Origin: Natrinema salsiterrestre
GTDB lineage: Archaea > Halobacteriota > Halobacteria > Halobacteriales > Natrialbaceae
Assembly (NCBI RefSeq): GCF_029502005.1
Contig: NZ_JAMQOT010000005.1
Coordinates: 62,001 to 126,000, forward strand
Direction: 5' to 3'
DNA length: 64,000 bases
Shown: piece after piece, positions 1,573-47,962 of the stretch
Position numbering within the stretch: position 1 is the stretch's first letter
How the letters are laid out: each line of letters opens with the position of its first letter
Notes under the pieces: model-generated
Database searches by the model: none
The model's input: the letters and a program-made list of their open reading frames with translations, nothing else
What the model was told of the DNA's origin: nothing
Program-made: the position numbers and the translations under genes

Positions 1573-4500
1573 GTGAGCCTTCCAGAGCGCATCGCGGACG
1601 TGGTCACGACGCACTCGGCGATCGTCCTCGTCGCACTCCTGTTGACGACGGCGGTGGTCGGCGCGGGAGCGCCGATGGTCGACGACGAGTCGTCCCTCGA
1701 CCAGTACGAGAGCGACTCGCCCGAAGGGGACGCCCTCGAGTACGCACAGGAGAACTTCTCGTCCGACGACCGAGAGAACACGACGACGGTACAGGTGATC
1801 GTCAGGGGCGACGACGTCCTCGCGAAGGAGTCGTTGCGCTCCTCGCTCGAGTTCCAGCAGACGATCCGCGAGAACGAGTCGATAAACGCGACGCTGGTCG
1901 ACGAGGAGCCGATCGTCGGCGTCGAGAACCTCGTGGCGACGACCGCGATCCGCGAAGAGCAGGCCGACGAACTCGCCGACCGCGGGGCCGAACTCGAGGC
2001 CCGCAGCGCTGAGCTCAACGAGACCGCGGCCGCCCTCGAGTCGTCGCTGAACGAAACTGTCGCGCTCGAGACGGAGTACAGCGAGCTCAACGCCTCCTAC
2101 GAGGCCGGCGAGGTCTCCGAGGAGGAGTACGAGCAGCGTTCGGCCGAACTCGAGGCCGAGTTCGACCGCGTCTCCGAGAACGCCACGGCCGAACTGGACG
2201 ACGAACAGGCGGCCCGATTCGCCGACGCGATGACGAACGCGCGGGGGATTCAGTCCGAAATCGTCGCCCTCGAGCGATCGTACGCGGCCGGTGAGATCTC
2301 CGAGGAGGAATACGAGTCCCGCTCCGAGGAGCTCGAGGGACAACTCGAGGACGTCTACGTACAGGGGACGGAAGGCGTTCTCGAGGAGGAGTTCGCGCAA
2401 CTCGAGGCCGACAGCGAACGGCTCGCGGAGGACCGCGAAGAACTCGAGTCGGCCGGGCAGCCGCCCCTCGACGAACAGATCGACGCGCTCGAGTCGATGA
2501 ACGAGTCGGAGTACGAGGAGACGCTCACGAGCGTGCTCTCGGAAGACGGCGGTCAGGGCGGTGCCATGGCACTGCGCCTGATGCCGACGTCCTACGATCC
2601 GGGCACGACGGAGGCCGATGCGCGGATGCTGTTCGTCGTCCAGTCGACCGAGAACGGCGATTTCCAGGGCCCGGGATCGGTCGACGAGACGATCAGCGAG
2701 AGCCAACTCGAGTTGCGGGACCTCGCGGACGCGAACGACCAGGAAATGGTCGTCTTCGGCTCGGGTATCATCACCGACGAGATCGACCGCTCGATGAGCG
2801 ACAGTCTGGCGATCGTCTCGCCGCTCGCCCTGCTGTTCGTCGTCGTCGCGCTATTGATCGCCTACCGCGACCCGCTCGACATCGGTCTCGGCATCGCCGG
2901 GATTTTCGCGGTGCTGCTCTGGACGTTCGGCTTCATGGGCTGGGCGGGAATCTCCTTCAACCAGATGTTCGTCGCCATCCCGGTGCTCCTGATCGGGCTC
3001 TCGATCGACTACGCGATCCACGTCTTCATGCGCCACCGGGAGCAACGCGAGGCGGGCGTCTCGGACGCCGGGAGCGGATCGGGGGCTCGCGGGGACGTGC
3101 CGACGGACGTGCGCGGTTCCATGTCCGTCGCACTGGCGGGCGTCGGCGTCGCGCTCGTCTGGGTGACGGCGACCACCGTCATCGGCTTCCTCTCGAACCT
3201 CGTCAGCCCGATCGCTCCGATCCGGGACTTCGGTATCGTGAGCGCGTTCGGCATCCTCGCCGCGATGATCGTCTTCGGCGCGATGATTCCCGCGGCGAAA
3301 GTCGAACTCGACGCGCGACTCGAGGACCGCGGGATCGACCGCCACAAGCGAGCGTTCGGGACCGGTGGCGGCCGACTCGCCGACGCGCTCTCGGTCGGCG
3401 CGATCATCGCCCGGAAGGCGCCGCTCGTCCTCCTCCTCGTCACGCTCGTCGTGACCGCAGGGGGCGTCTACGGCGCGACCCAGGTCGACACCAGCTTCGA
3501 TCAGAACGACTTCATCGCGGACAGCCCGCCGGCCTGGACGAACGACCTCCCCGAGCCGTTCGAGCCCGGCGAGTACAGCGCGAAGTCCGACCTCGAGTAC
3601 GTCAACCAGAACTTCCAGCGCCAGGACTCGCAGGCCCAACTGCTCGTCAGGGGTGCGGTGAGCGACGACGAGACGCTCGATCGGGTGGCCGCTGCGCAGG
3701 ACGACGCCGCGAACAGCTCCGTCGCCTTCGAGCTGGCGAGCGGCGAGGCCGACGTCCGCAGTCCGCTGTCGGTGATGGAAGACGTCGCTGCCGAAAACGA
3801 GTCGTTCAACGAATCGTTCCACGCTGCGGACACCGACGGCGACGGGGTTCCCGACGAGAACGTCGAATCGCTGTACGACGACCTCTACGAGACCGACTCC
3901 GAAGCCGCGAGCGACGTGCTCTACCGCAGCGACGGCGAGTACGAGGCCGCCCGACTGGTCGTGTCGATCGAGGGCGACGCCTCGAGCAGCGAGACGACCG
4001 AGGGAATGCGCGAGATCGCCGCTGACTTCGCCGACGGCGACGACCGCTGGTCCGTGATCGCGACCGGCGATCCGATCGTCAGCTACGTCGTCGAACAGGA
4101 CCTGCTGGACACGGTCCTCGAGAGCCTGCTGATAACGCTCGTGGCCTGTCTCGCCTTCCTGACGATCGCCTACTGGCTGACCGGAAACAGCGCGACGCTG
4201 GGTATCGTGACCCTGCTCCCGGTCGCGCTCGCGGTCAGCTGGATCCTCGGGACGATGTACCTGATCGGGATGCCGTTCAACGTCCTCACGGGGATGATCA
4301 CCAGCCTGACCATCGGGCTCGGCGTCGCCTACAGCATCCACGTCAGCGCCCGCTACACGCTCGAGCTCGAGCGGCAGGGCTCCGTCTGGGACGCGATGGA
4401 GACGACGGTCACGGGGACCGGCGGCGCGTTGCTCGGCAGCGCGGCGACCACCGTCGGCGGGTTCGGCGTCCTCGCGTTCGCGATCTTGCCCGTGCTCGAG

Positions 4501-22507: not shown

Positions 22508-22980
22508 ACTGCACCCTTCACCACGGTATCGGAAATACGTTACCGGTCCGAGGTGTTCGCGGCTCGAGACCGCGCTCTCAGTGGACCGCTCAGTGACGGA
22601 CGGCGTTCGGTACAGACAAGCTGCGCATTGCTATCGATTGATCAATCGACACGCGGTGGCGCACGCCGTCGGACGACCGAACGATAGTGAGGGCGGCCGG
22701 CAAAGCCGTGCGAGGGATGAGCGAGTGACCGACGGGAACGAGCGAATCGGCTGGGGAGGGCGTGGCGATTCCGTGTTGCCAGAATGGCAGAACGCGTCGT
22801 CTCTGTCTCCTCCGAGTCGTATCCAGTCGCTCTATTCGCATGTATGGCGTCCCCCTTTGTCGGTCGATATCTAACCGAAAGACCGATTCGATGGCACTGC
22901 TTCTGACGCAGTCTGCACTCTGTATCTCCGGACCCCGCTTCCCATCTCACGACCGCTGGTACTCGAAGCCCAGTCCCCAC
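22508..22980. other. Non-coding region with a 16-bp palindrome
   Basis: No protein-like frame is evident. The perfect palindrome TCGATTGATCAATCGA (22634-22649) stands alone in a slightly AT-rich stretch. The segment from about 22680 to 22790 has the purine-rich GAGCGAG/GGGAACGAGCG composition often seen between haloarchaeal genes. Open frames here are arginine-rich noise. Confidence 0.4.
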
Positions 22981-23157
22981 TCACGCCGGCTCTCGCTCGA
23001 GCCACAGGATAAATCCATCACCGAAAACAATAGGTATAAGTAACAACGCGGTGACGAGTAATTCGGAGGCCACGTCTCCGTGGGGGCGTACGCAAACGCC
23101 CCGGGTGCTAGGAACACCCGAGACTGGCTTCCAAACCGTGACAGGTTTCGGAAGCAT
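22981..23157 (-). CDS. Possible leaderless 58-residue single-helix membrane miniprotein
   Basis: On the minus strand TTTATA (23185-23180) lies about 25 nt before an ATG at 23157, the ideal spacing for a leaderless haloarchaeal transcript. The frame runs MLPKPVTVWKPVSG, then a basic stretch, then a hydrophobic helix (ELLVTALLLIPIVFGDGFILWL), and stops at 22981. G/C at third positions is only about 59 percent by my count, well below the neighbouring genes. The first 88 bases coincide with a hairpin array. The locus may therefore be a real small gene, a structured RNA, or both. Confidence 0.4.
   Translation of the reverse strand: MLPKPVTVWKPVSGVPSTRGVCVRPHGDVASELLVTALLLIPIVFGDGFILWLEREPA
23035..23040 (+). 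promoter_or_regulatory. Plus-strand TATA element before the hairpin array
   Basis: TATAAG at 23035-23040, preceded by the purine-rich CCGAAAACAATAGG. The expected start near 23062 would place the four hairpins at 23070-23155 at the very 5' end of a plus-strand transcript that could continue into the zinc-ribbon genes at 23259. Confidence 0.4.
23070..23155. ncRNA. Array of four consecutive hairpins, candidate structured RNA or leader
   Basis: Four stems follow one another almost without gaps: CCACG/CGTGG (23070-23083); GGGGCGT/ACGCCCC (23083-23102, seven bp, six-nt loop); CGGGTG/CACCCG (23102-23120); and GCTTCCAAACC paired with GGTTT-C-GGAAGC (23127-23155, eleven bp with one bulged C). TATA elements point at the array from both sides (23035-23040 on plus, 23185-23180 on minus). 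It could be a leader of the zinc-ribbon operon, a minus-strand small RNA, or the remnant of a mobile element with palindromic ends. The strand is undecided. Confidence 0.4.
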
Positions 23158-23258
23158 GATTCCGTACATTCTACCGGGATATAAACGTCCCGCACGACAG
23201 CCGAATCGCCCGACAGGATTAGCCTCGCCGCCGTCGCCGGACTCGAGGCGCGATCGCC

Positions 23259-23492
23259 ATGTGTGACGACCGCGACGCGAGACGTGACGACTCGGACGCG
23301 TGCGATGAGCACGACGTGCCGGACGGCCGCGACTCGTTGCCGCCCGACTGTCCCACCTGCGGCGAGTCCGTGCACGTCGTCACCGCCAGTGGTCCGTACG
23401 CGGGCACCGCCTTCCCCTGTGGCTGCTCGGTGGGTCCGGGCCGGATCACGCGCGATCACGACGGGCGCGAGGTCGACGGGAGGACCCAATGA
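23259..23492 (+). CDS. Small zinc-ribbon-like protein
   Basis: A 77-residue acidic protein. Its first 30 residues are almost all charged, followed by CPTCGE (C31, C34) and FPCGC (C54, C56), a plausible four-cysteine zinc site. It has no membrane segment. It belongs to the many haloarchaeal CPxCG-type miniproteins, whose roles are mostly unknown. The stop overlaps the start of the next gene as ATGA, so the two are translationally coupled and may work together. Confidence 0.65.
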   Translation: MCDDRDARRDDSDACDEHDVPDGRDSLPPDCPTCGESVHVVTASGPYAGTAFPCGCSVGPGRITRDHDGREVDGRTQ

Positions 23493-23635
23493 GCGGGCCT
23501 CGAGAACTGGGGTCGAAGCGCTGCCTCGAGTGCGGGGCCGTGCTCCCCATACCCGACCCGATCGTGGGCTGGTGGCTCTGTGATGACTGCGAACTCGCGT
23601 TTAACTCGGACGGTGAGCGGGTGACGGAGCGGTAG
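23489..23635 (+). CDS. 48-residue zinc-ribbon miniprotein
   Basis: The ATG at 23489 overlaps the preceding stop (ATGA), and the frame ends at TAG 23633-23635. The protein has two CxxC knuckles, RCLECG (C12, C15) and LCDDCE (C31, C34), separated by a hydrophobic PIPDPIVGWW segment, and ends in a charged tail. This is a compact zinc-ribbon layout. Its coupling to the upstream cysteine-motif protein argues for a functional pair. The function is unknown. Confidence 0.7.
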   Translation: MSGPRELGSKRCLECGAVLPIPDPIVGWWLCDDCELAFNSDGERVTER

Positions 23636-47906: not shown

Positions 47907-47962
47907 AGTCGTACGACCGCTTTGTCCGGTGACGGTTATAAAACACACGTATTACGCCCACC

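Follow-up and report, generated by a model that had tools for sequence, protein, structure and literature searches.

To our knowledge, few natural cis-regulatory RNA switches have been described in archaea, and none was found for haloarchaea in the open-access literature searched. The closest counterparts of the RNA leader analyzed here are translational riboswitches and orphan riboswitch candidates, which likewise occupy a 5' leader, form a conserved multi-branch domain, and carry an exclusive helix beside the start codon. The leader differs from them in having no match in Rfam, no Shine-Dalgarno (SD) sequence at the start codon, up to 34 copies per genome, and genes for zinc-binding and mobile-element proteins downstream instead of metabolic genes. 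Ribosomal proteins bind their own mRNA leaders and stabilize one fold, and such autoregulatory leaders resemble the one studied here in combining a structured leader with a small product of the nucleic-acid-binding type. However, no rRNA-like binding site was recognized in the new leader, and its downstream genes differ between clades. In Haloferax volcanii, the synthetic theophylline switch E masks the AUG region by folding and thereby controls translation (PMC8241225), as is likewise proposed below, but that switch is engineered and has a known ligand, whereas the leader is natural.

The leader was identified in Natrinema salsiterrestre, in a stretch of 64,000 nucleotides (the window). On its plus strand, a promoter at 23022-23040, consisting of the BRE-like sequence CGAAAACAATAG and the TATA box TATAAG (23035-23040), precedes a structured region, a short leader open reading frame (ORF), and two small genes for zinc-ribbon proteins, referred to as ZR1 and ZR2. 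The initial annotation had correctly pointed out this TATA element and the coupling of the two zinc-ribbon genes but missed the short ORF (23156-23266) between the stems and these genes. The structured region is likely to be a cis-acting two-state 5' leader of the plus-strand operon that controls translation of the leader ORF, ZR1, and ZR2. Among the copies of the element described below, AGNTATAAGT is conserved in nearly all 57, and the distance from the TATA box to the first RNA strand is 27 to 28 nt in 51 of 54, despite the variable intervening sequence. Given this constant spacing, the first strand of the structure should mark the start of transcription, which would then lie at about 23062-23065. 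Riboswitches are found in the 5' untranslated regions of the genes that they control, and, by position in the sequence, 53 of the 57 copies similarly have a TATA box before them and, behind them, an ORF that overlaps the next gene.

Four adjacent hairpins can be folded on the plus strand from 23064 to 23155, immediately 5' of the AUG at 23156, with stems at 23064-23070/23074-23080, 23083-23089/23096-23102, 23103-23107/23115-23119, and 23127-23137/23144-23155. These are the four abutting stems that had been recorded at 23070-23155, and they are foldable on either strand (z-scores against dinucleotide shuffles of -4.4 for the plus strand and -3.3 for the minus strand). The accompanying statement that such a density of stems is unique in the window did not hold, as 21 of 5,326 segments of 96 nt (both strands) fold better for their G+C content. 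With approximately 20 other stretches of the window folding similarly strongly, folding strength alone is not the argument, which has to be a comparative one. The 96-nt segments that fold even more strongly for their G+C content than the array include those at 47929 (minus strand), 53617, and 36049.

Comparison of the copies revealed a feature that had been overlooked, namely, that the first and the fourth stem share a partner. The 5' strand GGAGGCCACGTCTC (23065-23078), which takes part in the local hairpin hp1 (23064-23080; the first of the recorded stems), can also pair with GAGACTGGCTTCC (23120-23132), forming a long-range helix P1 in which every pair shows double changes. The last 7 nt of the latter strand (GGCUUCC, 23126-23132) constitute a switch strand with two possible partners: the 5' end, with which it closes a multi-branch structure by P1, and the strand that touches the AUG, with which it forms the pre-start hairpin hp4 (23127-23155; 3' strand CGGAAGC). 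When fully formed, hp4 excludes P1. Two further hairpins, hp2 (GGGGCGT/ACGCCCC, 23083-23102, with a loop often ending in GAAA) and hp3 (GGGTG/CACCC, 23103-23119), are enclosed by P1, and hp5 (CGGGAU-AUAAAC-GUCCCG, 23175-23192) lies inside the leader ORF. The hp1 hairpin appears in the minimum free energy structure of the isolated leader but is exclusive with P1. When RNAalifold was run on a plain MAFFT alignment with no structure supplied, it returned P1 (5' strand GGAAGCCxGUCUC with GAGACxGGCUUCC, enclosing hp2 and hp3), hp2, hp3, and hp5, and did not return the four-hairpin array. Similarly, full-length folding of 12 copies gave mostly the P1 fold.

Covariation was assessed by comparing how well a strand pairs with the partner from the same copy and with partners taken from other copies. 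Cognate partners beat swapped ones, with none of 2,000 permutations matching them, for P1 (z = -5.4), hp2 (z = -7.0), and hp4 (z = -10.1); covariation of hp1 was weaker (z = -2.6). The variants of hp2 among the copies include GGGGCG/CGCCCC, GGGACG/CGTCCC, and GGGGCAT/ATGCCCC. In hp3, 100% of the cells pair, and distant copies carry CGATG/CATCG, GCGTG/CACGC, and other swaps, and double changes in hp5 turn CGGGA/TCCCG into CGAGA/TCTCG. Both pairings of the switch strand covary in two independent sequence sets: in 51 Natrialbaceae copies, the z-scores were -6.5 for its pairing with the 5' strand and -5.0 for its pairing with the pre-AUG strand, and in 19 copies from other families they were -6.5 and -4.9, none of 5,000 permutations reaching the observed value in any of these cases. 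For instance, a Haladaptatus copy (L163) carries GGAAGACC, GGTCTTCC, and GAAGACC in place of the GGAGGCC, GGCTTCC, and GGAAGC of the window, a joint change of the three strands. In an alignment of 73 diverse copies that had been fitted to the model and is biased in its favor, unlike those used in the own-versus-swapped test and the RNAalifold run, the P1-state structure had 92.2% of its cells paired and 327 double-change cells, compared to 76.5 +/- 8.0 in shuffles, and structures slid along this alignment collapsed. The leader therefore has a conserved structured domain with compensatory changes, the evidence that had been called for to support the view of this region as a structured RNA or as a regulatory leader preceding the zinc-ribbon genes. 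That suggestion is now strongly supported, and amino acid conservation alone would not explain the covariation.

The switch strand can form hp4 in all 54 copies tested. Calculated for 37 C and 1 M salt, not for molar KCl, and obtained by splitting the domains, the energy difference between the P1 and hp4 folds is -0.6 kcal/mol for the window leader and averages -4.2 +/- 3.0 kcal/mol over the 54 copies. The mutually exclusive structure that characterizes a riboswitch expression platform is thus present, with a switch strand that covaries with both partners and two nearly isoenergetic folds. Still, P1 is favored in most copies, and by more than 6 kcal/mol in 17 of the 54, so that the hp4 fold (state A below) may need active help. 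In some copies, GGTTGCC or a similar sequence replaces GGAAGCC before the AUG, weakening the lower part of hp4, and in a minority subtype (L149, L152, L161, and L307) the partners are arranged differently. A second subtype, comprising L149, L152, L161, L302 to L304, L307, and L312, has a long P1 with a GCGGACC-type core and an extra hairpin; its leader peptides contain, e.g., PGFKRP, SGHKSP, or GLERP, and it is found upstream of integrase, PadR, and zinc-ribbon genes.

In most Natrialbaceae copies, the RNA ends directly at the AUG of the leader ORF. In the window, this ORF (23156-23266, plus strand) encodes 36 amino acids, starting with MIPYILPGYKRPARQPNR, and overlaps the next start codon by 8 nt. 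Among the copies, it starts with MIxYILPGYKRPAR and varies from 33 to 64 codons with its frame kept; in 53 of 57 it is open and overlaps the zinc-ribbon start, mostly by 4 or 8 nt. Decayed-looking tandem duplicates, L032b and L033b, account for two of the four exceptions. Codons 7 to 13 (GGA TAT AAA CGT CCC GCA) are nearly invariant even at third positions, in a G+C-rich genome; the RNA is constrained here as much as the protein, or more. The Haladaptatus copies have no leader ORF, which is therefore not essential. An SD-like word is found ahead of the zinc-ribbon start in 36 of 54 copies but ahead of the leader AUG in only 13.

The same codons bear on the minus strand, for which an inward-facing promoter and a leaderless miniprotein of 58 residues had been proposed. 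A TTTATA word does occur on that strand in most copies, but it is accounted for by the leader-ORF codons GGA TAT AAA CGT and the hp5 hairpin, of which it is a part, and in 7 of 55 copies it becomes TTTATG. The minus-strand ATG is a mechanical consequence of the palindrome CATG, and the ORF that it opens is not conserved, ranging from 3 to 232 codons across the copies. A minus-strand gene is thus extremely unlikely, and the structured region is better regarded as the two-state leader of the plus-strand operon.

The search for copies elsewhere, which the initial annotation had suggested, showed the element to be repeated throughout the genome, a property absent from that account. Nucleotides 22950-23300 gave 27 BLAST matches in the genome of origin, and a covariance model search found 28 copies. 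Most other Natrinema genomes carry copies that are recognizable by sequence alone. In the family Natrialbaceae, the model search detected the leader in 85 of 125 genomes and 24 of 29 sampled genera (including Natrinema, Halovivax, Natrialba, Halostagnicola, Halopiger, Natribaculum, and Natronorubrum), with up to 34 copies in one genome. Other families of Halobacteriales show a patchier and thinner presence. All 32 positives in a phylum-wide sample of 392 genomes belonged to Halobacteriales, and no match came from any other order in that sample. None of the 4,227 Rfam families matched the window at gathering scores, relaxed thresholds yielding only chance-level matches, and a tRNA search found none. 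The window element was not found in the phage collection, nor were ZR1 and the leader pattern found in viral contigs; the diverged SNJ2 leader described below provides the sole connection to a virus. The leader is a member of an RNA family that is undescribed in Rfam and in the open-access literature searched, an earlier account outside these sources being possible.

A dispersed element of this kind could be a mobile palindromic repeat of the MITE or REP type that carries hairpins by chance, as might be suggested by the spread of the 27 BLAST copies over many contigs and by a tandem duplication (L032 and L033) whose second copy has decayed. However, the alignment shows no common end point, identity fading gradually instead, the helices covary, nearly every copy has the same promoter-ORF-gene layout, and the L003 locus shares its flanking genes with loci of other species. 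This origin is very unlikely, and a MITE/REP-type repeat was rejected: the copies are tied to a leader ORF and a gene, and gene-free copies with shared ends were not seen. Slightly less improbable, but still unlikely, is the idea that the leader yields a trans-acting small RNA by processing, the downstream ORF being secondary. The many similar copies per genome and the stable fold of about 95 nt would suit such an RNA. Yet a free small RNA needs neither a fixed position ahead of overlapping ORFs, which 53 of 57 copies show, nor an alternative strand adjoining the AUG, which is found without exception. A cis-acting leader is preferred to both.

Two observations concern the surroundings of the copies. 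A second dispersed repeat (22660-22810; 47 matches in the genome) is found within 1 kb of 9 of the 28 leader copies, compared to approximately 0.5 expected by chance genome-wide, and often lies 100 to 250 nt upstream. In L032 and L033, the tandem duplicate lies approximately 0.5 kb away, with the second copy near 2007-2222 (minus strand), and shows apparent decay: its TATA box is altered, and the L032 duplicate has ACG where the start codon would be.

The genes behind the leader are diverse. In Haladaptatus, it precedes SWIM zinc-finger genes in many plasmid copies. On a Haladaptatus halobius plasmid (L315), the leader and the SWIM zinc-finger gene are followed by genes for a helix-turn-helix protein and an SprT-like protease, and several plasmids carry many places related to this locus. 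Elsewhere, the leader is found upstream of tyrosine recombinases (L303 and L312), of a PadR regulator gene (L161), and, in L156, L158, and L299, of an operon encoding a CxxC protein and a protein of roughly 300 amino acids without an assigned family. The L299 operon, scanned as a representative, had no match in Pfam, PADLOC, or PHROGs and none above the cut-off in NCBIfam. The gene for the CxxC protein (146 to 203 amino acids) overlaps or abuts that for the roughly 300-residue protein (GDGxVTDRHHASAD...SPFxLSGWLRHGCE) in L156, L158, L291, L292, and L298 to L301, where this operon recurs behind the leader in other families. A diverged leader also lies directly upstream of orf3 in the operon for recombination accessory proteins and integrase of the Natrinema pleolipovirus SNJ2 (L313, 2985-3121; E = 1.9e-6). 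The SNJ2 copy differs from the window leader in its diverged P1 and hp4 and in these downstream genes. Transcription of this operon, orf3-orf2-int, is reported to start at two alternative sites (PMC8371274). Given such varied downstream genes, the leader is a portable control element and not part of one gene family. The products comprise zinc-ribbon, SWIM, PadR, integrase, and unassigned proteins; zinc binding recurs among them, no single pathway does, and no metabolic or transport gene was seen.

The latter result bears on whether the leader is a riboswitch proper, in which a small molecule or ion would bind the P1-hp2-hp3 junction. The conserved junction with its GAAA-type loop, the nearly invariant GGGTG/CACCC beside GAGAC, and the exclusive helix adjoining the start codon are what such a riboswitch would have. 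On the other hand, besides the absence of metabolic and transport genes downstream, the sequences of hp3 and P1 change with almost no restriction in distant copies, so that a pocket would have few invariant nucleotides to draw on. A riboswitch in this narrow sense is possible but doubtful.

An alternative input could be the gene product itself, and here the zinc-ribbon proteins deserve attention. ZR1 (23259-23492, plus strand; 77 amino acids, CPTCG...PCGC) was aligned with paralogues and orthologues (41 sequences), which revealed six invariant columns, four of them Cys; the protein has one CPxCG and one PCGC motif, and its length across the copies is 47 to 112 amino acids. It resembles the haloarchaeal C(P)XCG zinc-finger micro-proteins (PMC11241148, PMC6562870), which are small one-domain zinc proteins with many paralogues, and differs from them in its single CPxCG plus PCGC, in belonging to no Pfam or NCBIfam family, and in being encoded behind an RNA leader and a coupled leader ORF. 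Searches of ZR1 against Pfam, NCBIfam, PADLOC, and PHROGs gave nothing above the threshold. The AlphaFold2 model (pLDDT of 71 overall and 85 in the core) contains short strands, and its weak Foldseek neighbors are mostly ribosomal proteins, many of them zinc-binding; with a best E value of 0.4, these matches are not significant and are not usable as evidence of function. ZR2 (23489-23635, plus strand; 48 amino acids, with a WWLCDDC motif) overlaps ZR1 by 4 nt, is present only in the subfamily of the window (13 copies), and has weak Pfam matches below the cut-off, all to zinc-finger models, the Cas12f TNB domain (E = 0.01) being one of them.

The genes behind the leader most often encode a small zinc-binding protein, a class able to bind RNA. 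Such a zinc-ribbon (or SWIM) product could bind the junction and stabilize one of the folds, making the leader autoregulatory; this would be a specific version of the two-state explanation, and the mostly ribosomal, often zinc-binding structural neighbors of ZR1 would accord with it if they were significant. However, integrases, PadR, and other proteins encoded downstream would not share one binding mode. Autoregulation is therefore put forward only tentatively, and the leader, which would work like a riboswitch or an autoregulatory leader, is assigned to neither class.

With either input, the two-state leader could work as follows. The analysis in silico shows that the two helices exclude each other and covary, that the promoter spacing is constant, and that the ORFs overlap; from this, transcription, translational control, its polarity, and reinitiation can be predicted. 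The transcript would start at the first P1 strand. In state B, this 5' strand would pair with GAGAC..GGCUUCC, closing the junction around hp2 and hp3 and leaving the strand before the AUG free. In state A, GGCUUCC would pair with the AUG-abutting strand, giving four separate hairpins and placing a long helix right up against the start codon. Which of the states is adopted would set the frequency of ribosome initiation on the leader ORF, and ZR1 and ZR2 would then be translated by termination-reinitiation via the overlapping stop and start codons. As hp4 leaves no nucleotide unpaired ahead of the AUG, state A is expected to be the OFF state and state B the ON state, although this polarity is a guess. 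Since P1 is made first in transcription and is usually stabler, hp4 probably needs either conditions that disfavor P1 or a transcript without the 5' strand. Control of initiation by strand exchange, with the zinc-ribbon genes reached by reinitiation, is proposed because H. volcanii uses no SD sequence at its 5' untranslated regions (PMC3986360), a synthetic AUG-hiding switch works in that organism, and archaeal overlapping genes are coupled by termination-reinitiation (PMC6728339). The distribution of SD-like words, common at the zinc-ribbon start and rare at the leader AUG, fits this proposal.

On balance, the leader probably represents a new natural class of two-state gene-control RNA that is confined to Halobacteriales, reaches about 34 copies per genome, and serves a large paralogous family of cellular zinc-ribbon genes as well as plasmid and virus genes (SWIM, integrases), combining strand exchange at an SD-less start codon with a translated leader peptide that would relay the signal through reinitiation. 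Many of the downstream genes, like the leaders themselves, lack annotation and are hence invisible in current genome records. Through these leaders, a family of cellular genes is connected to an integrase operon of a temperate archaeal virus. Abundant, strongly covarying, and present in genetically tractable hosts (Natrinema, with Haloferax as a test host), this leader family would allow tests of structure-controlled translation without an SD sequence and of the input that drives dozens of leaders.
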